A stretch of 42,764 bases of DNA from Candidatus Aminicenantes bacterium. Lineage in GTDB: Bacteria > Acidobacteriota > Aminicenantia > UBA2199. Location: contig DSBM01000141.1 of NCBI GenBank assembly GCA_011049425.1, positions 126,969 through 169,732 on the forward strand. Reading direction: 5' to 3'. This document shows positions 8,252 through 39,683 of this stretch, piece after piece. The first letter of the stretch is position 1, and each line of letters opens with the position of its first letter. The notes under the pieces were generated by a model, which worked only from the letters and a program-made list of their open reading frames with translations, ran no database searches and was not told where the DNA came from. The translations under genes were made by a program, and so were the position numbers.

Positions 8252-9784
8252 ATGCCACAGTTACGCAAGCGTGCCCTGATCAGTGTATATGATAAACAAA
8301 ATATTGCGGATGCCGCCCGAATCCTTTGTGAAAGCGGCTGGGAAATTCTTTCAACGGGTGGAACCGCCGCTCACTTGCGTGAACATGGCATTCCGGTTAC
8401 GGATGTAGCGGAAGCAACCGGTTTCCCGCAAATCCTGGATGGTCGCGTAAAAACCCTTCACCCCATGATATTCGGCCCGATCCTGGCACGGGATGATGCC
8501 GATCACCGCCGCCAGTTGGAAGCGAGAAACAGTTGCTTTATCGACCTGGTAGTGGTGAATTTTTATCCCTTTGAAACCGCCCTGAGAGACCCCGACGCGA
8601 CAGAAACCGAGATGGTGGAAAAAATCGATGTCGGCGGTCCATCCATGGTGCGGGCCGCCGCCAAGAATCACGCCCGCGTTGCCGTTGTGGTTGACGCGGA
8701 TGATTACCTTCCGGTGTGCCGACGCCTGGCCGAAGACGGAGACCTGGGTCCCGCTCTGCGCAAAAGACTCGCACACAAAGCCTTTTCCGCCACCGCACAT
8801 TACGACGCCTTGATTGCCGCCTACTTCTCCAGCCGTGATGCATCTCCACATTCCACGTTAGCCATCGGCGGCCGCAAACACCTGGACCTGCGCTACGGAG
8901 AGAACCCGCACCAGGCCGCCGCTCTTTATCTCTATTCTCATCAATCCCCGTTAAAGCATATGCGTCAGCTCCAGGGCAAGGACCTGTCATTCAACAACAT
9001 TCTGGACACCTCCATGGTGTGGGAAGTACTTTCGCGCTTTCAGCATGCCGATCCCTTCTGTGTGATCGTGAAACACCAGAATCCTTGCGGCGCCGCCAAG
9101 CGCAATCGTTTGGATCTTTCGTTTGCAGCCGCCCTTGAAGGAGACCCCGTGTCCGCTTTCGGTGGCATCGTGGGATTCAACAAGGCGGTTGACGCCGCCA
9201 CCGCGGAACGCTTGAAGCCGGTATTCCTCGAAGTGGTTGTGGCCCCAGCGTTCTCAGATGAAGCGCAACGGATCCTGAAAAGCAAAAAGAGTCTGCGCCT
9301 GTTGGAGATGCCGTTGGATTACCGGGAGATCCACGATATCCGCTCCGTACCCGGAGGATTCCTCTGGCAACAACCGGACCATGACATCGCTGATGCCGCC
9401 GGGTTTATCAACCATGCCGACCGGCCTGCGGAGCCCTGGGAAATGCGTGATGTTGAAATGGGGTGGCGCCTGATCAAGTTCGTTAAATCAAACGGCATAT
9501 TGGTGGTTCGGGATGGCGCAATCGTGGGAGTTGGCGCCGGCCAGATGAGCCGGGTTGACTCTGTGCGGCTGGCTCTGGCAAAATGTGGCGACCGTTCAAA
9601 GGGAGCCGTGCTGTTGTCGGACGCCTTTTTCCCCTTCGCCGATTCCATTGAACTCGCCGCAAAAAAAGGCATCAGCGTGGTTGTGGAGCCTGGAGGATCC
9701 ATCCGCGATGAGGAAGTGATCGCCGCAGCCCGGCACCTCAACATGACCCTCTTATTTACCGGGATGCGTCACTTTCGCCATTAA
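8252..9784 (+). CDS. purH: Bifunctional AICAR transformylase / IMP cyclohydrolase
   Basis: 510 residues, the normal length. The N-terminal MGS-like cyclohydrolase domain (about 1-145) shows RALISVYDK, STGGTAAHL, ILDGRVKTLHP (61-71) and DLVVVNFYPF. The transformylase domain shows LRYGENPHQAA (213-223), SFNNILDTSMVWE and the catalytic K274-H275 in VIVKHQNPCGAA. Together they carry out the last two steps of purine synthesis, formylation of AICAR and ring closure to IMP. The ATG at 8252 is preferred over one at 8231 because GAGGAG lies six bases upstream of it. The gene ends inside maf, on the other strand, with a 29-base convergent overlap. No purine riboswitch is recognisable in the leader. Confidence 0.96.
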   Translation: MPQLRKRALISVYDKQNIADAARILCESGWEILSTGGTAAHLREHGIPVTDVAEATGFPQILDGRVKTLHPMIFGPILARDDADHRRQLEARNSCFIDLVVVNFYPFETALRDPDATETEMVEKIDVGGPSMVRAAAKNHARVAVVVDADDYLPVCRRLAEDGDLGPALRKRLAHKAFSATAHYDALIAAYFSSRDASPHSTLAIGGRKHLDLRYGENPHQAAALYLYSHQSPLKHMRQLQGKDLSFNNILDTSMVWEVLSRFQHADPFCVIVKHQNPCGAAKRNRLDLSFAAALEGDPVSAFGGIVGFNKAVDAATAERLKPVFLEVVVAPAFSDEAQRILKSKKSLRLLEMPLDYREIHDIRSVPGGFLWQQPDHDIADAAGFINHADRPAEPWEMRDVEMGWRLIKFVKSNGILVVRDGAIVGVGAGQMSRVDSVRLALAKCGDRSKGAVLLSDAFFPFADSIELAAKKGISVVVEPGGSIRDEEVIAAARHLNMTLLFTGMRHFRH

Positions 9785-10403
9785 GCCGTCGCGATGGTTG
9801 AATCCCAAAGCAATCAATCCCCGCCCGGTTGGTCATGGTATAGAACAACCGCAGGGGAAACCCCATTACGTTGAAATAACACCCGCTGATCCGTTCCACG
9901 AACAAGGCGGACAGGCCTTGAATGGCATACGCCCCCGCCTTATCCTGGTAGTGGGCCAGATCCAGGTAGCGATCAATTTCCCACGCAGAGAGCTCGGCAA
10001 ACCAGACACGGGTTTTGGCCATTTCCACCCATTCCCGGCCGGCATGCAAAAGGCCGATTCCGGTCCAGACCTCATGCATGCGCCCGGACAAAGAACAGAG
10101 GATCTGCCTGGCATGGTCTCTGGAACCGGGTTTGCCCACAATATCACCGTCCAGGATCACAACCGTATCGGCACTGACCACCAGGGCCTCGCCTTCCAGG
10201 TTGCCGCGCACAAACCGGCCTTTCTCTAAAGTCAACCGGCAAACAAAATCCTCCGGGGACTCATTGGGCCTAATGATCTCGGGAATTCGGGGGGGATGGA
10301 CTTCGGGGTTCAGGTTGATTAAACGCATCAACTCCAGCCGCCGGGGGGAACTGGAGGCCAGAACAATTCTTGAGGTGAACCCATTTTCTCTGTTTTTCGT
10401 CAT
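9756..10403 (-). CDS. maf: Maf-type nucleoside triphosphate pyrophosphatase
   Basis: 215 residues. Maf motifs are ASSSPRRLELM (16-26), VVSADTVVILDG with the metal-binding aspartate, GKPGSRDHARQIL, LSGRMHEVWTG and YQDKAGAYAIQG. The family hydrolyses non-canonical or pyrimidine nucleoside triphosphates to monophosphates, and the YQDKAG-type signature is that of the YhdE (dTTP/UTP) branch. It is the last gene of the pilB-pilR operon and overlaps pilR by four bases. The final 20 residues are polar and extend beyond the conserved domain. A link between Maf and the pilus genes is not expected; operon membership may be historical. Confidence 0.9.
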   Translation of the reverse strand: MTKNRENGFTSRIVLASSSPRRLELMRLINLNPEVHPPRIPEIIRPNESPEDFVCRLTLEKGRFVRGNLEGEALVVSADTVVILDGDIVGKPGSRDHARQILCSLSGRMHEVWTGIGLLHAGREWVEMAKTRVWFAELSAWEIDRYLDLAHYQDKAGAYAIQGLSALFVERISGCYFNVMGFPLRLFYTMTNRAGIDCFGIQPSRRLNGESDASR

Positions 10404-11794
10404 TTCAAGTGAAACTTTTCAATCAGATAACGCAAGGAACGGTAACTCAAGTTCAACATTTCCGCGGTACGTTTGATGTTGGATTGATTCATTTCGAGGG
10501 CTTCGAAGATGATTTGCCGGCTGAGATCATCAATATAGTCCGAGAATGAAAAGTTTTCCTGTTGCAGGATCGTATGGATCTCCTGCTGATCAACCGTGGT
10601 TGCGGACACGTGGTAAAGCAGCTCAGAGGGAAGTGAGCGCATGGAAATCAACTCCCCTTTCTCCAACGCCACGGATCGCTCCACAAAATTTTCCAATTCA
10701 CGTACGTTTCCCGGCCAATTGTACTGCATGAACTGGGAAGTCACCTCATCGGAGAATCCCGCGACCCGCTTATCAAAACGGCGATTGTACAAAGCCAGGA
10801 AGTAGTGCATGAGGGGCACAATGTCGTCCTTGCGCTCTCTCAGGGCGGGCACTTGGATCGAAATGACGTTCAAGCGATAGAACAAATCTGAACGGAACTC
10901 ACCGCTTTTCATTTCCTGGGCCAGATCGCGATTGGTTGCGGAAATAATGCGAACATCCACCGGAATCTCACGATCCCCACCCACGCGGCGGATGGAACGC
11001 TCCTGGATCGCCCGCAACAATTTAACCTGCATTTTCTGTGACATTTCAGCGATTTCATCCAGGAAAAGTGTACCTTGATGGGCTTGTTCAAACAAACCGG
11101 GTTTATCCCGGTAGGCATCGGTAAAAGCGCCCTTGATGTGCCCGAACAACTCGCTTTCAAGCAGAGTCTCCGGCAAAGCGCCACAGTTAATGGACACGAA
11201 ACGGTTCTTTGCACGTGGACTGCGATCGTGTATGGCCCGGGCGATCAGTTCTTTACCCGTTCCGCTTTCACCGCTGATCAGCACGGTTGAATCGGTCTGG
11301 GATACCGTATCGATGAGATCGTAAATCTGCAGCATGCGGCGGTTTCCACCAACAATGTTGCCGAAGCTGCGGAGTCCGGACAACTCGCGACGCAGTTGGG
11401 TATTCTCATCTTCCATCATGCGCCGACTCATGGCCCGGGACACCACCACTTTCAACTCATCGATATTGAAGGGCTTGGTCACGTAATTTTCCGCCCCCAG
11501 TTTCATGGCTTCCACCGCATCCGCTGTTGAGGCATACGCCGTAATCATGATTACGGGGATGGACGCGTCTATGCCTTTGATCTTCTTCAGCAATTCAATC
11601 CCGCTCAGGTCCGGCATCTTGATATCCGAAATAACCAGGCTGGTCTTCCCTTGCTTCAATATGTCCAGGGCCGCGCGGGAGTCTTCGGCACATAGCACTT
11701 CATAGCCTTCCTTTTTCAGGATGATCTGCAACATATCGCGCAGACTGGCATCATCATCAACAATCAAGATGGTTGAAACTACAGGGGAAAGCAT
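10400..11794 (-). CDS. pilR: Sigma-54-dependent response regulator PilR
   Basis: 464 residues in the NtrC-type order: receiver domain (1-120) with D13-D15, phospho-acceptor D57 and K107; AAA+ domain with Walker A GESGTGKE (175-182), the sigma-54 contact loop GAFTDA (222-227, usual GAFTGA), Walker B GTLFLDEI (241-248) and R-finger region; and a C-terminal Fis-type helix-turn-helix (about 435-464, IKRTAEMLNLSYRSLRYLIE). PilR activates sigma-54 transcription of pilin genes when phosphorylated by PilS. It overlaps pilS by 16 bases and maf by four. A candidate target, the sigma-54 site at 6780-6795, lies about 3.6 kb away. The D replacing the second G of GAFTGA should be checked for activity. Confidence 0.9.
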   Translation of the reverse strand: MLSPVVSTILIVDDDASLRDMLQIILKKEGYEVLCAEDSRAALDILKQGKTSLVISDIKMPDLSGIELLKKIKGIDASIPVIMITAYASTADAVEAMKLGAENYVTKPFNIDELKVVVSRAMSRRMMEDENTQLRRELSGLRSFGNIVGGNRRMLQIYDLIDTVSQTDSTVLISGESGTGKELIARAIHDRSPRAKNRFVSINCGALPETLLESELFGHIKGAFTDAYRDKPGLFEQAHQGTLFLDEIAEMSQKMQVKLLRAIQERSIRRVGGDREIPVDVRIISATNRDLAQEMKSGEFRSDLFYRLNVISIQVPALRERKDDIVPLMHYFLALYNRRFDKRVAGFSDEVTSQFMQYNWPGNVRELENFVERSVALEKGELISMRSLPSELLYHVSATTVDQQEIHTILQQENFSFSDYIDDLSRQIIFEALEMNQSNIKRTAEMLNLSYRSLRYLIEKFHLK

Positions 11795-13365
11795 ATCGTC
11801 ACCTCAGTACCGACGTTCTTTTCCGATTGAACCTGGATTTCGATTTTATGGGCATCCAGGATGCGCTTCACCAAAGCCATTCCCAATCCGATTCCGGAAC
11901 TGAAGCGGGAAAAAAACGGCGAAAACAGCTTTTCTTTGTCCGCGGAAGACATGCCGAGACCGTTATCCCGGACACTCAGGCGCACTTCGTTTTCCGCGCG
12001 AAACACCGCCACCTGCACGACGCCTTCTTCTCCCACAGCCTTTACCGCGTTGTTGAGCAGGTTCCAGATCATCTGGGAAATCTGGCGCGGGTCGGCACTG
12101 ACCTCCAAAGAAGGATCGCAACGACGCTCGAAACGGATTCCCGCATGAGCGGTCTGCAACAACTCAACCACATCATCCACCAGGTTCGCCAACGCGAATC
12201 TTTCGATCTCCAATGGGGGGATACGGGTGTAGTCCAGGAAATTTTCGATGGATCCGGATAAGCGGGAAGATTCCTTGACAATAATCTCCATGAGATTCTT
12301 GTGTTCGGGCGCCACCCGCATTTCCCGGTAGAGGAATTGAACTGAACCGGATATGGAAGCCAGCGGATTGCGGATTTCATGAGCAAGTCCCGCCGCCATT
12401 TCACCAATCAAGGCGAGGTGCTCCCGTTCTTTCAACTCGGCTTCAATGCGCTTTTTCTCCGTCAAATCAGTCAGGATAAAGACAAATACTTGCGGCAGGG
12501 CGTACATACCGGACAGACGGGTCATGGTAATGCCGAGGATTCGCCCATGGATACTCTTTTCCAGGTATTTGCCCGCCGGCCGGGAAGAATTCCCATCCTC
12601 GCTGCGCTGTTCTTCAGCGGTCAACAACAGGTCCAACACATTGCGTCGCTTATCCAGACGCAACATGTGGCGGGCGATCTCATTGTACGAAATGGCCCGG
12701 CCGCTGGCGCTGCAGGTAACAAAACCGTTGTGCATCTTCTCTAGAACGGTGTTGTTTAACTGCATCAGATCTCTAAAGTTCTCCCGAACATTGCGTAGTT
12801 TTTCATCCGCGGAGCGTATTTTCTCGAAATAGAAGGAAGAGATCATGGCCACGGCTGAAAAGGCTATAAAACTCATCAATAGATTGTAGATAAAAGTGGC
12901 CGTTGAGACCCGTTCCAACGAAAGCCCGGGATACATGGGAAGCAGATCCAGAAACATCAGATCCGCCAGCAAGCCGAAGATAATGAATGCGAAAGTGGCG
13001 ACGTAAACGGTTTCCGTGCGTCTAAGAAAGAGAGCGGATACGATGATCGGCAATATGTAAAGGAAATAGAACGGACTGCTGATGCCGCCGGAAAAATAGA
13101 CCAGTAAAGTCACCACCATGAGGTCCATTCCCAGTTGCAGGTAAATAGCGGTCCGGTAATGCAGTACCCGTATCAGGAAAAATTCCAACAGGCTGAAAAC
13201 CAGGGCAATGGAAAGAGACACCAGGATGGGAACCGTGGGAAAGGGCGTCTTGAAAAACAATCCCACGAACAGTGAGATCAACAAGAGACCGCTCAGTATG
13301 GCGATGCGAATTGAATTGGTGAGAACAAACTTGCGCGCGAGCTGCTTGTCCTCCAACAGAATCAA
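11779..13365 (-). CDS. pilS: Membrane sensor histidine kinase PilS
   Basis: 528 residues, TTG start with GGGA upstream. About six membrane segments lie in residues 15-180, followed by a short coiled coil (about 183-210), a PAS-like domain (about 205-305), the phospho-acceptor helix with H329 in LAHEIRNPL, and the ATPase domain with NLLNNAVKA (435-443), DNGLGM (467-472) and GIGLGMALV (491-499). This is the architecture of PilS, which senses pilin in the membrane and controls PilR. There is no periplasmic sensor domain of note. The ORF starts 13 bases after the pilC stop and overlaps pilR by 16 bases, which fits coupled expression of the pair. Confidence 0.88.
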   Translation of the reverse strand: MILLEDKQLARKFVLTNSIRIAILSGLLLISLFVGLFFKTPFPTVPILVSLSIALVFSLLEFFLIRVLHYRTAIYLQLGMDLMVVTLLVYFSGGISSPFYFLYILPIIVSALFLRRTETVYVATFAFIIFGLLADLMFLDLLPMYPGLSLERVSTATFIYNLLMSFIAFSAVAMISSFYFEKIRSADEKLRNVRENFRDLMQLNNTVLEKMHNGFVTCSASGRAISYNEIARHMLRLDKRRNVLDLLLTAEEQRSEDGNSSRPAGKYLEKSIHGRILGITMTRLSGMYALPQVFVFILTDLTEKKRIEAELKEREHLALIGEMAAGLAHEIRNPLASISGSVQFLYREMRVAPEHKNLMEIIVKESSRLSGSIENFLDYTRIPPLEIERFALANLVDDVVELLQTAHAGIRFERRCDPSLEVSADPRQISQMIWNLLNNAVKAVGEEGVVQVAVFRAENEVRLSVRDNGLGMSSADKEKLFSPFFSRFSSGIGLGMALVKRILDAHKIEIQVQSEKNVGTEVTICFPL

Positions 13366-13377
13366 TGTGTGTCCCGA

Positions 13378-14589
13378 TTAGAACTGGCCGATAATCGCAA
13401 ACATGGGCAGATACATAGCGATGACCACTGAACCCACCAGACCACCCAGCAAAAGAATCATAATAGGTTCCATCAACGAGATCAAAGCTGAAACCGCCTG
13501 TTCCACTTCTTCATCATAGAAATCTGCGATCTTTTCCAACATATTGGAAAGAGAACCGGTCTGCTCACCCACGCCCACCATTTGCGTAACCATAAAGGGA
13601 AACAACTTGGTTTCTTCCCAGGATTCGTAAATGGGCTTGCCTTCCTGGACAGACGCCCGGCTGTGCATGATCGTATCCTCGATAATGGCATTTCCCGCGG
13701 TTTTGGCGGTAATGGTAATGGCTTCAATGATTTCGACACCGGCATTCAGCAGCGTGGAAAGCGTACGGGTCACCCGGGCGATACCGGTTTTTAGCAACAA
13801 ATCGCCGAAAACCGGGAGACGCAGCTTGAGCCGATCCACCACGCGACGGCCCTTGTAAGTCTTGTTGTAAGAGTTGAATGCCAGCGCCAGCCCTACGGCC
13901 GCAATCAACATTAAAAAGAAATTGCTTTGCAGGAATTCCGAGGCCGCGATTACAATCTGCGTGGGAACGGGCAGATCCGCCCCCAGTTGCGTGAACAATC
14001 CCTGAAAAGTCGGCACAACCTTCCACAGAATTACAGCCGTCAGAACCACGGCCGCAATCAAAACGGCCACGGGATAAGCCAGGGCGGACTTGACCCGCCC
14101 CACGAGTTTGGCCATGTTTTCAATGTATTCCGAGAGACGCAACAGGATGGTGTCGAGGTTTCCCGAAGCTTCGCCTGCCTGAATCATGCTGGTGTAGAGC
14201 TCATTGAACACTTTTGGATGTTTCTGCAACGCGTTGGAAAAATTGGCTCCCGCTTCCACATCCCGGCGCACATCCAGAATCACTTCCTTCAGGTACTTGT
14301 TTTTCTGTTGTTCCCCCAGAATGCCCAGTCCTTGCGTGATCGGCAGGCCCGCGTTGAACATCACGGATAACTGGCGGTTAAACACGGAAAGCTCACGCAT
14401 GGAGACTCTCTGTCGTGCGCCTTTGCCCACAAAAGGCAGTTTGAAACTGACTCGTTTGCGCTCAATGTTGAGAACCTGGATCTGCTCGCGTTCAAGAGCA
14501 CGGGAAAGCTCCTGAGGGGACCGTGCCATTCTTTCGCCCGTAATCACGTTTCCAACCCGGTTCTTGCCCTTGTACTTGAATACCGGCAT
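13378..14589 (-). CDS. pilC: Type IV pilus inner-membrane platform protein PilC
   Basis: 403 residues with two repeats of the T2SF domain (about 70-195 and 272-397), three main membrane segments near 170-190, 220-240 and 375-397, and family segments RQLSVMFNAGLPITQGL and MIQAGEASGNLD in the first repeat and RTLSTLLNAGVEIIEA and MVGVGEQTGSL in the second. PilC couples the PilB and PilT ATPases to pilin assembly and removal. AAGGGGG precedes the ATG. The gene is 10 bases after pilT and 12 bases before pilS. The length is typical and no domain is missing. Confidence 0.94.
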   Translation of the reverse strand: MPVFKYKGKNRVGNVITGERMARSPQELSRALEREQIQVLNIERKRVSFKLPFVGKGARQRVSMRELSVFNRQLSVMFNAGLPITQGLGILGEQQKNKYLKEVILDVRRDVEAGANFSNALQKHPKVFNELYTSMIQAGEASGNLDTILLRLSEYIENMAKLVGRVKSALAYPVAVLIAAVVLTAVILWKVVPTFQGLFTQLGADLPVPTQIVIAASEFLQSNFFLMLIAAVGLALAFNSYNKTYKGRRVVDRLKLRLPVFGDLLLKTGIARVTRTLSTLLNAGVEIIEAITITAKTAGNAIIEDTIMHSRASVQEGKPIYESWEETKLFPFMVTQMVGVGEQTGSLSNMLEKIADFYDEEVEQAVSALISLMEPIMILLLGGLVGSVVIAMYLPMFAIIGQF

Positions 14590-14599
14590 TTAATCCCCC

Positions 14600-15742
14600 T
14601 TAAAACCTTCCCGGTTGCATGCCCCCGGACGCGCCCCCGGCATATCCCTGTCGCATGTGGCCGGCAAGGGATGAAGGGCCGCGACGGATCAATTCGCCCA
14701 GTTCCTCCGGGTTGTGGGATGCTCCCATTGCGGTGTCCATTGATATGTCTTTCTTGAAATAGAGTTTGGCCAGGGACTGGTTGAACGTCACCATTCCGTA
14801 CTTTTCCTGACCGGTCTGCATTGAGGAGTAAATCTGGTGGATCTTGTTGTCCCGGATGAGATGACGGATAGCGGGATTCGGTATCAGCACCTCGTTGGCC
14901 AGAACCCGGCCGCGTCCGTCGGCCTTGGGCAGAAGCGATTGGGTGACAATGCCTTCGATATTCATGGAGAGTTGGGTCCGGACCTGGTCCTGCTGGTGGG
15001 GTGGAAACACGTCGATAATGCGGTTGATGGTCTGGGCGGCTGAATTGGTATGCAGGGTGGCGAAGGTCAGGTGACCGGTCTCGGCAATGGTCAAAGCGGA
15101 CTGAATGGTTTCCAGGTCACGCATTTCGCCGATCAATACCACGTCTGGATCTTCCCGCAGGGCGGATTTCAACGCCAAGGAGAAACTCTTTGTATCCGCA
15201 TGGAGTTCACGCTGATTGACGACCGCTTTGCGGTGGCTGTGAAGGTATTCAATGGGATCTTCAATGGTGATGATATGGACCAGGCGTTCCTGGTTGACCT
15301 TGTCGATCAAAGCGGCCAGAGTGGTGGTCTTACCCGAGCCCGTGGGACCGGTCACCAGCACAAGCCCGCGGGGCTTGTCCGCGAGCGTGGCCACCACCGG
15401 TGACACTCCCAGGCGATCAAATCCCCAGATCTCATATGGAATTCTCCGGAACGCCCCGGCAACGGCGCCACGCTGCATAAACACATTGGCGCGAAAACGA
15501 GCGATCCCCTTGATTCCAAAAGAGAAATCCAGTTCCCAGTTGTCCTCGAACTTGTGTTTTTGATTGTCGTTCAGAATGCTGTAGATGATCTGCTTGGTTT
15601 CTCCCGGGGTTAACGGAGGATGCTCAATGCGACGGATTTTTCCGTGAACACGAATGATGGGAGGCGCATTCGTGGTAATGTGAAGGTCAGTTCCTCCTTC
15701 ATCCACCATCAGCTTCAGCAACTGGGGCAACGGCAAGGCCAT
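14600..15742 (-). CDS. pilT: Type IV pilus retraction ATPase PilT
   Basis: 380 residues. Walker A GPTGSGKT (132-139), the Asp box EDPIEY (161-166), Walker B with VVLIGEMRD (201-209), the His box ATLHTNSA (228-235) and the PilT-specific AIRNLIRE-type motif, here AIRHLIRD (291-298). PilT depolymerises pili and powers twitching. The last 25 residues are Gly-rich and go beyond the usual end of the protein. The ATG has AGGAG upstream; the gene follows pilB by nine bases. Presence of the AIRNLIRE motif separates it from PilU. Confidence 0.94.
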   Translation of the reverse strand: MALPLPQLLKLMVDEGGTDLHITTNAPPIIRVHGKIRRIEHPPLTPGETKQIIYSILNDNQKHKFEDNWELDFSFGIKGIARFRANVFMQRGAVAGAFRRIPYEIWGFDRLGVSPVVATLADKPRGLVLVTGPTGSGKTTTLAALIDKVNQERLVHIITIEDPIEYLHSHRKAVVNQRELHADTKSFSLALKSALREDPDVVLIGEMRDLETIQSALTIAETGHLTFATLHTNSAAQTINRIIDVFPPHQQDQVRTQLSMNIEGIVTQSLLPKADGRGRVLANEVLIPNPAIRHLIRDNKIHQIYSSMQTGQEKYGMVTFNQSLAKLYFKKDISMDTAMGASHNPEELGELIRRGPSSLAGHMRQGYAGGASGGMQPGRF

Positions 15743-15751
15743 CCGATTCTC

Positions 15752-17464
15752 CTAGATTTTCGAGGTTTCCCGCAGGACTTCTTCAATGGTAGTGACTCCT
15801 TCCTTGATCTTTTCGATCCCGCTGCGCCGCAGCGTAAGCATTCCCTTTTCCTTGGCCTTTTGGCGCAGTTCCGAAGTGGATGCTCCCACCATTACCAGCT
15901 CCCGCAATTCTTCGTCGATCTCCATGACTTCGAACAGGCCCACCCTTCCCTTGTAACCGGTGTTGTTGCATTTTTCGCAACCCGTGGGTTCAAAGATATC
16001 CACTTTTTTGGCCTCTTCCGGAGCAAATCCGATATCGATCAGGGTCTGGACAGGGATTTTCGCGGGTTTGCGGCATTTTGAACACAGCCTGCGGACCAAT
16101 CGTTGCGCGGCCACCAGACGCACCGCGCTGGAAACCAGAAAGGGCTCGATCCCCATGTTGATCATGCGCGCGATAGTGGAGGGCGCGTCGTTGGTGTGAA
16201 GGGTGGACAGGACCAGGTGACCGGTCAAGGCCGCCTTGATGGCGATATCCGCGGTTTCAAAGTCCCGGATCTCACCCACGAGGATGATGTTCGGATCCTG
16301 GCGCATGAACGAACGCAGGGCAGCGGCAAATGTCAAACCGATCTGCTCCCTGATGTTTACCTGGTTGATACCGAAGATGTTGAACTCCACGGGGTTCTCC
16401 GCGGTAAGGATGTTCACGCCCTCATCGTTGAGCTTGGAAATGGCGGAATACAATGTGTTGGTCTTTCCCGATCCGGTGGGGCCGGTGACCAGGACAATGC
16501 CCCAGGGTTCCGATATATTGGAGTCAAAACGTTTCAACGACAGGGGTTCAAAACCCAGCTTCGTCATATCCAACATCAAGTTATCTTTGTCCAGGATGCG
16601 GATTACGATCTTTTCTCCATGAATGGTCGGAAGTGAACTGACCCGCATATCCACCACCTTGATCTGATCGTTGATTTTGAGCTTGGTTTTGATACGGCCG
16701 TCCTGGGGCAACCTGCGTTCGGCGATGTCGATTCCGGCAATCAGTTTGACGCGGGCCAGCACCTTGTTGCGTAGATTCATCGGCGGCGTCATGTATTCAT
16801 GCAGGACGCCATCAATGCGGAAACGCACGCGAAACTGTTTTTCGTACGGTTCAAAATGGATATCGGACACGCCTTTTGATATGGCGTCCTGGAAAATGAG
16901 ATTCACCAGCTTAATGGCCGGGGCATCTTCATCCATTTCCGCTTCAAGCAATTCCTCGTCCGCCTCATCCAGCAATTCAATGGAGGCGTCGTCGTTCATC
17001 TCGATCTCATCCAGGAATTTCTGGGCCTCGATCCCCTGGGAAGAGCCGTAATAACGATCAATGGCCTCCATAATGGAGTTCTCCGGGGCAATCACCGCCT
17101 GGATGCGCAGGTTGGTGGAAAAGCGGATCTCTTCCTGAACAAACAGGTTGGATGGATCCGCCATTGCCAGGGTAAGAATCGATCCAATGCGATGGACGGG
17201 AATCACAATGTGTTTGCGGGCAACATCGGGCTTGATCAAGTGAATGACTTTTTCTTCGATATCGAACTTTGATAGGTTGATGGATGGATAACCGAACTGC
17301 TTGCTCAATGCCTGGGCGATATCTTCTTCTGAAATATATCCCAAACGGATCAGCACACTCCCGAGTTTGCCCGCTTCTGTTTTCTGGACTTCAAGGGCGT
17401 GGTCCAACTGCTCTTGTGTAAGGCGATTGTCCTTGAGCAGATACTCCCCGATCTTCATGCTCAT
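15752..17464 (-). CDS. pilB: Type IV pilus assembly ATPase PilB
   Basis: 570 residues. The N-terminal MshEN domain (about 1-145) has the LGxxLI-type segment. A short acidic linker (155-180) precedes the ATPase domain with Walker A GPTGSGKT (328-335), Asp box ENPVE, Walker B NIILVGEIRD (392-401) and His box STLHTNDA (420-427). A zinc-binding four-cysteine motif is formed by C461, C464, C496 and C499. PilB powers pilus extension. It opens an operon of pilB, pilT, pilC, pilS, pilR and maf with gaps of about 10 bases. An ATG two codons downstream (17458) is an alternative start. The promoter's -10 lies nine bases from the first ATG. Confidence 0.95.
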   Translation of the reverse strand: MSMKIGEYLLKDNRLTQEQLDHALEVQKTEAGKLGSVLIRLGYISEEDIAQALSKQFGYPSINLSKFDIEEKVIHLIKPDVARKHIVIPVHRIGSILTLAMADPSNLFVQEEIRFSTNLRIQAVIAPENSIMEAIDRYYGSSQGIEAQKFLDEIEMNDDASIELLDEADEELLEAEMDEDAPAIKLVNLIFQDAISKGVSDIHFEPYEKQFRVRFRIDGVLHEYMTPPMNLRNKVLARVKLIAGIDIAERRLPQDGRIKTKLKINDQIKVVDMRVSSLPTIHGEKIVIRILDKDNLMLDMTKLGFEPLSLKRFDSNISEPWGIVLVTGPTGSGKTNTLYSAISKLNDEGVNILTAENPVEFNIFGINQVNIREQIGLTFAAALRSFMRQDPNIILVGEIRDFETADIAIKAALTGHLVLSTLHTNDAPSTIARMINMGIEPFLVSSAVRLVAAQRLVRRLCSKCRKPAKIPVQTLIDIGFAPEEAKKVDIFEPTGCEKCNNTGYKGRVGLFEVMEIDEELRELVMVGASTSELRQKAKEKGMLTLRRSGIEKIKEGVTTIEEVLRETSKI

Positions 17465-34812: not shown

Positions 34813-35910
34813 TTATCGCAGTTTGATACTGATGAGGCTGATCAGGGCAAACAACACGGAAACAATCCAGAAGCGGATCACGATCTTGGGCTCGGCAATG
34901 CCCAGGAATTGAAAGGTGTGATGAATGGGCGCACGGTAAAAGATGCGACGTTTCAGCCACTTAATCCCCACGTAATCCTGGATAAACACGGAAAGAAACT
35001 CAAGAACGAAAATCCCGCCGGCAATAATAAACAGCAATTCCTTTTTCAGCATAACCGCAGTGGTTCCAATGACTCCGCCGAGAAACATGGCTCCCGTATC
35101 CCCCATGAAAATCTGAGCCGGATAAGTGTTAAACCACAGAAACGCCGCCAGCCCTCCCACCAGCGCAGCCATGGCGACAACCAGTTCCCCTGATCCGGGA
35201 ACGAATGGGTATAAAAGGTAATCCGCGATAACCGAATTCCCGATAATGTAAGCGAATATGGCGTAAACCGCCGCCAGCAAAGCCACGGGAACCGTGGCCA
35301 GGCCGTCCAGTCCGTCCGCGAAGTTCACTGAATTCGATATGGCGATCACGGTGAGAATCACAAAAGGATAATAGAAAAATCCCAGGTCCACGGCGGGGTT
35401 TTTAAAAAAAGGAACAAACAGGCCTCGGGCGATTTCGGCTGGAAAGGGCGTGCTTTCCGGGGACAGGACCAACCATGCCAGGATCAAGCCGAACACGGCT
35501 TGAAAAAACAACTTGGCGGCGCGGCTGAGCCCGGCATCACTGTGGCCGCGCATGTGCTTCAGGTAGTCGTCAAAGAAACCGAGGGAAACAAACCAGAAGG
35601 AAGCAAACACCACAATCCCCACGAACATGTTGTCCAATCGGCACCACAACAACACCGCCACGAGAAAAGCCAGAAAAATAATCAGCCCCCCCATGGTGGG
35701 AGTACCTTCTTTATCACGACTGGATATGTCTCCGTAATCCCTGATACGGTCACGGAAACGAAGCTGAAAAATGATGTTGATTAAATGCCGGCCGAGGAAC
35801 ACGCCCATGACAAATGCCGTCAACATGGCCAGAAGGGCACGGAAACTGATGTAGCCGAAAAGGCGCTGCCCGGGAATCGATCCCATCCAATCAATAAGCC
35901 AATGAACCAT
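34813..35910 (-). CDS. mraY: Phospho-N-acetylmuramoyl-pentapeptide transferase MraY
   Basis: 365 residues, about ten membrane segments. Catalytic and metal-binding aspartates are visible: D114-D115 in FFDDYLK and the NFADGLDG segment (196-203). Other features are the GTPTMGG motif (69-75), the MGDTGA motif (269-274) and the C-terminal APIHHTFQ (327-334). MraY joins the UDP-MurNAc-pentapeptide to undecaprenyl phosphate, forming lipid I on the inner side of the membrane. In most MraY proteins the last motif contains three histidines followed by F-E; here the third histidine is a threonine and the E is Q. The ATG is two bases after the stop of the MurG-MurJ fusion, so the lipid I, lipid II and flippase genes form one unit. 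Confidence 0.94.
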   Translation of the reverse strand: MVHWLIDWMGSIPGQRLFGYISFRALLAMLTAFVMGVFLGRHLINIIFQLRFRDRIRDYGDISSRDKEGTPTMGGLIIFLAFLVAVLLWCRLDNMFVGIVVFASFWFVSLGFFDDYLKHMRGHSDAGLSRAAKLFFQAVFGLILAWLVLSPESTPFPAEIARGLFVPFFKNPAVDLGFFYYPFVILTVIAISNSVNFADGLDGLATVPVALLAAVYAIFAYIIGNSVIADYLLYPFVPGSGELVVAMAALVGGLAAFLWFNTYPAQIFMGDTGAMFLGGVIGTTAVMLKKELLFIIAGGIFVLEFLSVFIQDYVGIKWLKRRIFYRAPIHHTFQFLGIAEPKIVIRFWIVSVLFALISLISIKLR

Positions 35911-35912
35911 GT

Positions 35913-38900
35913 TTAACCGATCTCCTCATAAATCCGGCGGATCAAGGCCTTGAGCCGGAACTCGGGCTGCAGGTTGTTGGACGTGATCAACACGCGGGCA
36001 ATCAATTCTTTTACCTCTTCCCCGGTCAGGTGGCCACGGCGATGAAAGGAGAGCAATAATTCCAGCAATCCCTCGCGAACACATGAATTGGGATGCAGGA
36101 AAAACGCTTCCATGCTATCCAGATCTTTTTTTGCTCCATGAGTGGCCACCAGTTTCATGGCGGCAAGGCACTCCTCTACCCCGCCGCGACGCAAGCGTTC
36201 TCTCACCAGGTCGCTGAAATCCGCATAATCCTCGTCCGACAATGTCAGTGTCAGGTGCTTGAGTGTAGCCACCCTCACCTCGTAATAGGAGTCCTGCAGA
36301 AGGCGGCGAAACAGTTGCTGCCATTCCGGATCCCAACTCTTCATTTGTGACAATGCCGTCAAGGCATTACGCCGGATAAACCCTTTCTCCCGGGTATTGC
36401 GGAGGAGGTTGACGAGCAGAGACACTTTTGATGTATCCTGAAACAAGCCGATCAGCTTGACGCCCACGTTGCGTATTTCCCATTCCGGGCTGGAACAATA
36501 CAGATTGATCTTATAATGGAAATCACGGCGATAGGTGTTGGGATCGCCGGAAACCCTTTCCAGGAAACGGAAAGGCGAGAGCATGGAAATGGGAGGCTGA
36601 ACGGATGGCCGCAACCAGCGATTGCGAAAGAAAAGGATCTCGGTGTTCTTCAACAACAGCGAGGAGAGAAAATAGACGGCTATGCCGACAAAGGAAAGTG
36701 AAAGCAGGGTCACTGTATGTTCCAGGACCCGGGATTCAAAAACAATGCGGGCAAACAGTTGGCGGGACTCCGCCAGAACGATCACCATCATCAGTGCCGC
36801 CCCCGCGGTCTTGGCCAGGCTGGTGACCAATTGCTTCGATTCCACGTGGATTTCGTCACCAAGTAAGCGTTGGCGCAACACCACGATGCGGATCAGCGCA
36901 AACCCCATATAGGAAATGGATGCGGCCAGCGCCAGGCCGGCATAACCCAGTGATGTTCTAACCAGCAATATGGCCAGAATGATATTGACGGCCAACATAA
37001 AGAAGTTGAGTTTCATGGAAGTCTTGATATCCAGACGCGCAGAAAATATGCGTACCGTGAGAGAATGGATTCCCCACCCCACCAGACCGATGGCGTAAAA
37101 CTGCAAGGCGTATGCCGTACGGCTTACGGCCAGCGAATCGAAACTGTGGCGCTGCAGCAGCAATGAAACCAGTGGATTGGCCAGGTAGATCATTAAAATG
37201 GATACCGGAACCAAGAGAAACAGATTGATACGGATGCCGTCTACGAAAAGGCGCTTAGCCCTCTCACGGTCGAACAGGGCGATTTTTGCGGAAAACTGCC
37301 GCAGGATGACACTGTTTATGGCCTGAGAAATCACGGCAAAAGGCAAGCTGAATATGCGGCGTGAGAAATACAGGAAAGAGATTGAACCACTCGGCAGGAC
37401 AGAAGCCAGCGATTGATTCACGATTTCAGAGGTATTGGACAAAAACACATCCAGGGAAATGGGTCCAAGTTGCCGATAGTATTTCTTGTTGACGGTACTG
37501 GAGAGATGGATCCTGGGCCGATGGAAAAAACCCAGGGCCGGCTGGCGCAGGATGCGCAACGTGAACGGTATGAGAAAAAGGATCTGCAACAGTCCGCCCA
37601 GCAATACGCCGGCAGCCAGGGAATATACACCCAGCCATGCGTGTCCCATGAGAATTCCTGCGATGGTGCCGATTGAAAAAAGGGCGGCGGATGATTCCGC
37701 CAATCCAAAACGACTGAACGCTTTCAGCCACACCCCGAGTATGGCGGCCACGGTTACCAGAAACAGGTATGGAAACATCAGGCGCGTCATATTCACGGTA
37801 AGCCCCACGATGCCCTTGGCGACGAAACCCGGGTACAACAAACGGATCAGCATGGGGGTGACCAGAATACCGCTGACGGTCAGCAACAGGGAAATCAGCA
37901 GGGTAAAGTTGATAAGAGAAGATGATGCCTCCCAGGTCTTTTTGCGGGAACTGCGGTGAAAAAGTCGCAGAAAAATCGGCAGAAAGGCGTTATCGAGGGC
38001 GTTCTCCGCCACAATGCGGCGCATGAAGTTCGAAACGGTCAACCCCACGGCGAATACATCCATTGCGCGGCCGGCCCCGAAAACTGCTGCGGAGACCATT
38101 TCCCGAACAAAACCACTGAGCCGTGAAAAAATGATCCCCAGAGATGAACCCATCATCATGGATGTGGTGGATTTCAAGTCACGAATACTTGTGATCTTCT
38201 CCTGGTAACTTTTGAGTAAAAGCGTGTGCGTTCCAACCTCGACGATATCCCCGGCAACCAATTCAGCCCATTTCTGGACCGGCTCCTTGTTCACCCGCAC
38301 CGGACCCCGCTTGGGTTTAATGACCAGTCGTTCCCCGCCGCCAAGTTGGCGGATTTCCGCCATGGCTTCGACTCCCCCGGAATCCAGGCTGATATCACTC
38401 CACAGCGTGTTGCCTACCGTGGTGGCTTCAAACACCAGCTCATGAGTGAGTTCGGTCTCGGATTCCTGCAGATAGAACACACGAATTTCCCTTTCCTCTG
38501 CTTGCGGATGGCCGCTCGCCAGGGTATCAATCTCCTCAAGAATTTTTAAATTGCTTTCCCGCGGGTCTGTTACTTTCAGGGCATTGCGCATCGATTGCAG
38601 AACCGCATCATCATCGAGCAATTCAGTGATCGACTGAAACAGCGCGACTTCCGGAACTTCCAGCTCTCTGCGTACCTCCGATGGGTTGACGACTTCATAG
38701 ACAACGCGGCAGCCGCCGGACTTTTCGACTTCAATGGCGTTCAGGATCTGGTGGTCACCTGGAAGATCGCTTTTGGGGATAACAATCGACGGTAACCCCA
38801 CGGTGGTGATCTCTTTAATGGTTCCCGCTCCGGCCCGGCATACCACCAGGTCGGCCACCGCGTAAATCTCATCGATATTATCAAAGTATTCACGAATGAT

Positions 38901-39683
38901 CAGGCGGCCGGGAATTTCGATGGGGCAGCCGATGCGTTCAAGCCCGCGAATGGTGTCGTCGTAAGCCTTGTACTCCCGGGAATACCCCCTGCCGGTGGAA
39001 AGAATCACGGTCAGATCTCTCCTGGCTATCAACATGGGCATGAGTTCGATCATGGCCTGGTTAATGGTACGGGCTCCACCGCTGCCGCCGAATACAAATA
39101 CCACCCGGTTGGTGTCCGGAATCAGCAACTTGCGCCGGATATCACCGACAGCTGATTCCGTAATGGCAAGGCGCAGGGGATAACCGGTAACCGCCACTTT
39201 TTCACTGGGGAAAAAACGGGCTGATGACGCAAATGACACCCCGATTCGACTGGCATACCTGGAGATCATGCGATTCAAGCGCCCGGGAACCGCATTCTGT
39301 TCGTGGACAAACACCTTGAGTTTCAATATGGAGGCCGCCAGCATCACCGGGGCCGCCACGTAGCCACCACTGCCCACCACGACATCCGGACGAAAACGCT
39401 TCAGAATAAAAAAGCTCTTTACCGTTCCCGCCAATATTACCGCCAATGCCCAAGCGGTTTTCAGGTTACGTACTTTTTGGGGCAAACCCATGGACGGTAC
39501 GGTCACAAAACCCATCGGCTGGGGCATTCTTGGAACAATGCGCGCCTCCGCGCCCCGCCGTGTTCCAATATAGAGAAAAGATGCCTGTGGATGTGCGGCT
39601 TTGATTGTTTCGTAGATGGCGATGTTGGGATATACGTGACCGCCGGTCCCGCCACCGGTAAACACGATCCTCTTGGCTGTCAT
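35913..39683 (-). CDS. murG-murJ: MurG-(FHA-like)-MurJ-(HEAT-like) fusion: lipid II synthase and flippase in one chain
   Basis: A single 1256-codon frame. Residues 1-392 are MurG: GGGTGGH (10-16), HEQNAVPG (127-134), GGSGGA (199-204), CRAGAGTIKEI (282-292) and DHQILNA (310-316). It adds GlcNAc to lipid I. Residues about 399-495 look like an FHA fold (WSDISLDSGG, RVNKEPV, AGDIVEVG), but the conserved phosphopeptide-binding residues are missing. Residues 503-1012 are MurJ: SRLSGFVRE (R521, R527), GAGRAMDVF (D542), NFMRRIVAENAL (R555, R556) and about 13-14 membrane segments. Residues 1053-1256 are paired helices of the HEAT type. The ATG at 39683 follows an extended -10 by ten bases, and mraY starts two bases after the stop. 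No stop or frame break joins the parts. Confidence 0.9.
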   Translation of the reverse strand: MTAKRIVFTGGGTGGHVYPNIAIYETIKAAHPQASFLYIGTRRGAEARIVPRMPQPMGFVTVPSMGLPQKVRNLKTAWALAVILAGTVKSFFILKRFRPDVVVGSGGYVAAPVMLAASILKLKVFVHEQNAVPGRLNRMISRYASRIGVSFASSARFFPSEKVAVTGYPLRLAITESAVGDIRRKLLIPDTNRVVFVFGGSGGARTINQAMIELMPMLIARRDLTVILSTGRGYSREYKAYDDTIRGLERIGCPIEIPGRLIIREYFDNIDEIYAVADLVVCRAGAGTIKEITTVGLPSIVIPKSDLPGDHQILNAIEVEKSGGCRVVYEVVNPSEVRRELEVPEVALFQSITELLDDDAVLQSMRNALKVTDPRESNLKILEEIDTLASGHPQAEEREIRVFYLQESETELTHELVFEATTVGNTLWSDISLDSGGVEAMAEIRQLGGGERLVIKPKRGPVRVNKEPVQKWAELVAGDIVEVGTHTLLLKSYQEKITSIRDLKSTTSMMMGSSLGIIFSRLSGFVREMVSAAVFGAGRAMDVFAVGLTVSNFMRRIVAENALDNAFLPIFLRLFHRSSRKKTWEASSSLINFTLLISLLLTVSGILVTPMLIRLLYPGFVAKGIVGLTVNMTRLMFPYLFLVTVAAILGVWLKAFSRFGLAESSAALFSIGTIAGILMGHAWLGVYSLAAGVLLGGLLQILFLIPFTLRILRQPALGFFHRPRIHLSSTVNKKYYRQLGPISLDVFLSNTSEIVNQSLASVLPSGSISFLYFSRRIFSLPFAVISQAINSVILRQFSAKIALFDRERAKRLFVDGIRINLFLLVPVSILMIYLANPLVSLLLQRHSFDSLAVSRTAYALQFYAIGLVGWGIHSLTVRIFSARLDIKTSMKLNFFMLAVNIILAILLVRTSLGYAGLALAASISYMGFALIRIVVLRQRLLGDEIHVESKQLVTSLAKTAGAALMMVIVLAESRQLFARIVFESRVLEHTVTLLSLSFVGIAVYFLSSLLLKNTEILFFRNRWLRPSVQPPISMLSPFRFLERVSGDPNTYRRDFHYKINLYCSSPEWEIRNVGVKLIGLFQDTSKVSLLVNLLRNTREKGFIRRNALTALSQMKSWDPEWQQLFRRLLQDSYYEVRVATLKHLTLTLSDEDYADFSDLVRERLRRGGVEECLAAMKLVATHGAKKDLDSMEAFFLHPNSCVREGLLELLLSFHRRGHLTGEEVKELIARVLITSNNLQPEFRLKALIRRIYEEIG

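Follow-up and report, generated by a model that had tools for sequence, protein, structure and literature searches.

MurJ is the transporter thought to carry lipid II across the membrane. The identity of the lipid II flippase has for years been a matter of debate, as has the question of whether a complex passes lipid II on or lipid II simply diffuses. Stand-alone MurG (GT28; TIGR01133; structure 1f0k) is a tailless enzyme of ∼360 amino acids that acts at the cytoplasmic face of the membrane and is encoded near mraY, usually in the dcw cluster. Stand-alone MurJ, or MviN (MOP superfamily; TIGR01695; structures 6cc4 and 7waw), is recognizable by its 14 helices, N-terminal arginines, and TM1–TM2 motif. 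Described proteins with related arrangements include mycobacterial MurJ (Rv3910), which has additional cytoplasmic domains and whose phosphorylated pseudokinase is bound by a separate FHA protein, FhaA (PMC6180346), and MurE–MurF of Bordetella pertussis, in which two consecutive peptidoglycan-precursor enzymes share one polypeptide but both are soluble ligases, and synthesis is not joined to membrane transport (PMC6420597). No description of a MurG–MurJ fusion or of a MurG–HEAT protein was found in searches of the open-access literature, and novelty is provisional to that extent.

The window (the whole 42,764-nucleotide stretch of DNA analyzed here, from Candidatus Aminicenantes, a group of uncultured Acidobacteriota) carries a continuous ORF of 1256 codons on its minus strand, with an ATG at 39683 and a stop codon at 35913–35915; the initial annotation gave no strand. 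From its N to its C terminus, the encoded protein comprises MurG, a module with a degenerate FHA fold, MurJ with 14 helices, and a tail of HEAT repeats (Table 1), and the claim that all four are contained in one frame was confirmed by the ORF together with Pfam matches and profile and structure matches to the PDB. A frame of this length with such domain matches is far beyond chance. The MurG part shares the fold, the donor and acceptor motifs, and the proximity to mraY of the stand-alone enzyme but is fused to MurJ and a HEAT tail and lies outside a dcw cluster, whereas the MurJ part differs from stand-alone MurJ in having MurG in front and HEAT behind, with a TM8 arginine that is shifted in most members. 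In contrast to the mycobacterial system, MurG is here part of the same chain, and the FHA module is built in and has lost its binding residues. A structure model of residues 1–1195 (mean pLDDT 83.5, pTM 0.56; relative orientation of MurG and MurJ not reliable) shows strands and helices alternating as in MurG, an all-beta region at 395–500, approximately 14 long helices at 506–1010, and short helix pairs after 1037. An internal restart for MurJ at the three methionine codons of residues 508–510 was considered and rejected, because relatives do not conserve them.

Table 1. Coordinates of the fusion gene, its modules, and the adjacent mraY in the window
Feature	Coordinates	Strand	Basis
Whole fusion gene	35913..39683	-	1256 codons, ATG; full-length in 19 family-f1 genomes
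MurG domain, residues 1-385	38529..39683	-	Pfam GT28-N/C; 1f0k match; residue conservation
Degenerate FHA-fold module, residues 395-500	38184..38501	-	Predicted model and Foldseek PDB matches
MurJ domain, residues 506-1010, 14 predicted membrane helices	36654..38168	-	Pfam; 7waw match; model
HEAT-repeat tail, residues 1037-1256	35916..36575	-	Profile match to designed HEAT proteins, E 5e-21
mraY, lipid I synthase	34813..35910	-	Pfam MraY signature and Glycos_transf_4

Pfam searches placed GT28-N at residues 6–148 (E 2e-33) and GT28-C at residues 194–331 (E 2e-27), and a search against solved structures matched this part to Escherichia coli MurG (1f0k, E 5e-35). The GGTGGH, HEQN, GGSxGA, and acidic donor-binding motifs are all present. 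Across 26 aligned MurG–MurJ–HEAT proteins, H127, N130, E291, and Q312 are invariant, and H16 and S201 are also conserved (H16 in 25 of 26, the remaining sequence being truncated there), which bears out the initial view of a complete MurG motif set. From this sequence conservation, the domain is likely to have retained GlcNAc transfer to lipid I. TIGR01133 is by far the best full-family match to the MurG part, at 237.5 bits just under the NCBIfam cut-off of 250.25; automatic annotation would therefore probably call the window protein MurJ only, and such fusions are easily missed. N-terminal extensions of MurG at three loci in families f6 and f7 (L065, L074, and L067) had no Pfam match and were taken as mechanical extensions of the ORF.

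The MurJ part is matched by Pfam at residues 532–978 (E 5e-81) and by TIGR01695 with 299.5 bits, which exceeds the cut-off of 235.55, so that the family score lies above the curated cut-offs; lipid II flippase structures match residues 511–1010 (best E 2e-51, 7waw), and 14 membrane helices are predicted. In E. coli numbering, R18, R24, D39, R52, R53, and R270 are regarded as important for MurJ. Equivalents of all six are present in the window copy, and R24 and R53 are invariant in all 26 MurG–MurJ–HEAT fusions (D39 in 25). The TM8 arginine (R270) requires a caveat that the initial annotation did not mention: it is kept in 22 of 22 unfused MurJ sequences compared and in all proteins of the opposite order, MurJ–MurG–HEAT, but in most MurG–MurJ–HEAT proteins it is either lost or found one helical turn (four residues) further downstream. 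The genus of the window retains it, and in the window protein it is residue 776 (37356–37358, minus strand). Lipid II flipping is thus probably retained, as judged from these residues.

The middle region had no significant match in Pfam (best Yop-YscD_cpl, E 0.13) or in a sequence-only search of the PDB, where FHA proteins appeared at E 1.3 and 2.4. The model predicted for it, with a pLDDT of 76 and values above 90 in much of the core, was more informative: almost all of the best 50 Foldseek matches in the PDB are FHA domains, with TM-scores on the target of up to 0.70 and a best E value of 1.7e-3, none falling below 0.001. These matches include 3oun, the FHA domain of FhaA solved with the cytoplasmic domain of mycobacterial MurJ. 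Phosphothreonine-binding FHA domains rely on Gly-Arg, Ser-Arg-x-x-His, and Asn-Gly. In the consensus of the aligned modules, Gly-Asn occurs, Ser-Arg and His are missing, and Lys-Gly replaces Asn-Gly, leaving the phosphothreonine-binding residues absent. On the predicted model the module is thus an FHA fold and not a phosphopeptide-binding FHA domain, as had been suspected from the sequence and is now upheld by both fold matches and alignment; since the binding residues are absent, the fold appears to have been put to another use, possibly as a spacer or for docking. The module is optional, being reduced in genus g51 of family f12 and absent from f12 genus g50 and from all MurJ–MurG–HEAT forms.

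The C-terminal tail consists of tandem two-helix repeats that match designed HEAT proteins by profile. HEAT_2 of Pfam is found at residues 1064–1139 (E 5e-6), just below its curated cut-off in the window protein but well above it in f12 relatives, and with the profile and the model this agrees with the HEAT-like tail initially proposed. When related genomes were searched with a tail profile, tails linked to MurG scored 1.8e-23 or better and all other proteins 2.5e-6 or weaker, a gap that rules out a merely generic HEAT resemblance. The tail is an extension of MurG that also occurs without MurJ, which rules out its acquisition with the fusion event. It probably serves to dock MraY or some other partner.

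The source genome is a draft, presumably metagenome-assembled, of 2.62 Mb in 171 contigs (96.15% complete), as would suit an assembly or sequencing artefact that had joined two genes. The full-length architecture was, however, found in 19 of the 34 genomes of the window's family (f1), the rest having fragments at contig ends or lacking the locus. These 19 proteins are 47–89% identical to the window protein and have the same junctions, and the deposits come from several independent projects; an end-to-end homologue was found in Candidatus Aminicenantes MAGs from several projects and in one genome labelled Acidobacteria. With so many independent full-length copies, an error at the junction was rejected, its probability being negligible. 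The domain order recurs in family f12, where six genomes encode MurG–MurJ–HEAT proteins of 1071–1191 amino acids. The source genome contains one match to MurJ and one to Glyco_tran_28_C, both in the fusion gene, besides two FtsW/RodA proteins; no second MurG or MurJ, and hence no separate intact murG and murJ, was found in this 96.15%-complete genome. Because these matches are the sole ones, no candidate for the MurG and MurJ steps was found other than the fusion. In four f1 genomes of genus g8 (G124, G133, G134, and G136), FtsW/RodA is present and neither the fusion nor mraY was found; G124 has about 20 contigs and a completeness of 93%. Either these bins lack the locus, probably through incompleteness, or these bacteria do something else. 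Within frames of ∼800 amino acids in f12 (G102:C2, G105:C6, and G106:C35), a third FtsW/RodA-like match was seen, a weak one (E 1e-12 to 1e-15).

In the window, mraY begins at 35910 after a gap of 2 bases from the stop codon of the fusion, and it adjoins every full-length fusion locus whose DNA extends far enough. Other families of the window's class have separate murG and murJ genes, with mraY 1.5–3 kb from murG. The initial annotation had considered the fusion and mraY to be one unit; this holds as a conserved gene pair, with cotranscription and physical association as plausible extensions of it. Elsewhere in the window (9756–17464, minus strand), genes for a Maf-like protein, a sigma-54 response regulator, a PilS-like kinase, a T2SSF protein, and two T2SSE ATPases form a cluster resembling a region for a type IV pilus or for secretion.

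A profile search was carried out over 396 Acidobacteriota genomes, with results checked on fetched DNA, and the fusion was thereby sampled in Acidobacteriota only. The opposite order, MurJ–MurG–HEAT, was found in nine genomes of two families: all five genomes of f9, a family of the window's class (about 1155–1164 amino acids), and all four fetched genomes of genus g62 in family f23, again as a single frame. MurG–HEAT proteins without MurJ (659–791 amino acids) are encoded in f15, f23-g122, f26, f34, f37, f39, f42, f43, f64, and f79; in all cases where the fetched DNA extends that far, mraY overlaps these genes or follows them immediately. The proteins apparently constitute an undescribed long form of MurG. 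MurG–HEAT with mraY downstream was seen at L113–L128, L144, and L145 and is widespread in Acidobacteriota. In f37, murJ lies directly 3′ of mraY. In f23-g122, the sister genus of g62, murJ and murG–HEAT are separate genes that overlap by ∼30 bases at two of three loci. At the g62 junction (...TYGFLRSRRTEKMKVVLTGGGTGG), about eight residues separate the last MurJ helix (TM14) from the MurG core, and the methionine at the would-be start of MurG is retained. The link of the tail to MurG without MurJ, the optional FHA module, and the origin of the fusion on at least two occasions in opposite orders were beyond what the initial annotation could see.

Phylogenetic trees were compared for RpoB, MurG, and MurJ. 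In the RpoB tree, the families with fusions in the window's class (f1, f9, and f12) form a group (90/88) that is sister to all other members of the class. In the MurG tree, all HEAT-tailed forms make up one clade (100/100) apart from short MurG, with the f9 and f23-g62 fusions nested among unfused MurG–HEAT genes, and in the MurJ tree f1 and f12 form one clade (100/98), whereas f9 groups with fused and unfused f23 sequences. Constraining all fusions to one clade was rejected by the AU test (p-AU 3e-37 for MurG and 8e-5 for MurJ), while a clade of f1 and f12 in MurG was not (p 0.09); the groups were picked after a first inspection of the trees, which somewhat weakens these p-values. A single origin of all fusions is thereby rejected, and MurG and MurJ were therefore joined on at least two occasions and at two different positions. 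The simplest account is an ancestral pair of MurG–HEAT and mraY that gained MurJ in at least two separate events. The MurJ-first form would have arisen when a stop codon was lost between overlapping murJ and murG–HEAT genes and the MurG-first form when MurJ was placed between MurG and its HEAT tail. MurG and MurJ of f9 (L051–L055) group with those of f23 (L109–L115), outside the window's class, whereas RpoB places f9 with f1 and f12, a conflict suggestive of transfer of the murJ–murG locus; the f9 and f23 fusions reflect either one shared event or transfer. Some MurG–HEAT genes may also derive from a fusion by later loss of MurJ.

The gene most probably encodes one bifunctional lipid II synthase–flippase of the inner membrane (probability approximately 0.75). 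At the cytoplasmic face, its MurG domain would convert lipid I to lipid II, and the MurJ domain, tethered through the degenerate FHA spacer, would receive lipid II and flip it, with MurG held at the cytoplasmic mouth of the flippase and lipid II handed over locally. By homology with known MurJ, both ends of the 14-helix domain are predicted to be cytoplasmic, and so MurG, FHA, and HEAT would all face the compartment of lipid II synthesis; whichever of the two domains comes first, MurG would have lipid I on its own side of the membrane. In native mass spectrometry of MraY, MurG, and MurJ, MurJ takes lipid II in preference to the other two (PMC9046198). Because MurJ outcompetes MurG and MraY in this way, tethering would shorten the transfer step. 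Coupling of lipid II synthesis to export, as suggested in the initial annotation, is supported as the likeliest purpose of the fusion.

We favor local hand-over; its main rival is that the fusion only ensures stoichiometry and localization, with independent domains present in equal amounts at one site and no direct transfer of lipid II. This explanation, somewhat doubtful but to be taken seriously, would accommodate the free domain order, the lack of any conserved fixed geometry, and linkers that range from the FHA module of ∼110 residues in f1 through a reduced one in g51 and a short one in g50 to ∼8 residues in f23-g62, and the higher affinity of MurJ could by itself pull lipid II onward (PMC9046198). 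At least two origins and retention in four families, however, suggest more than neutral joining, and very short linkers force proximity: with the ∼8-residue linker of f23-g62, MurG must sit against the flippase. It is unlikely that one half is non-enzymatic, the MurJ part serving as an anchor or scaffold for MurG while a SEDS or unknown protein flips lipid II. The MurJ part is divergent (Pfam E about 1e-82, compared with 1e-110 or better in many stand-alone relatives), most MurG–MurJ–HEAT forms lack the TM8 arginine or have it displaced, and Bacillus subtilis can dispense with MurJ and Amj (PMC12096821), but the invariant R24 and R53, the nearly invariant D39, the R270 kept in the window copy and in all MurJ–MurG–HEAT forms, and the lack of any other MurJ found in the genome argue against this reading.

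The fusions provide a single chain that can be taken as it stands into structural and kinetic studies. Tentatively, and with somewhat less than even confidence, Acidobacteriota may have repeatedly built a covalent synthase–flippase beside mraY that channels lipid II from MurG to MurJ, with the HEAT tail docking MraY. If so, that would count as evolutionary evidence for MurJ acting immediately after MurG and for contact between the two in ordinary bacteria as well. Independent fusions of MurG and MurJ, in two orders and with linkers down to ∼8 residues, are direct evolutionary evidence that the two proteins act together and suggest that lipid II synthesis and flipping are physically coupled.
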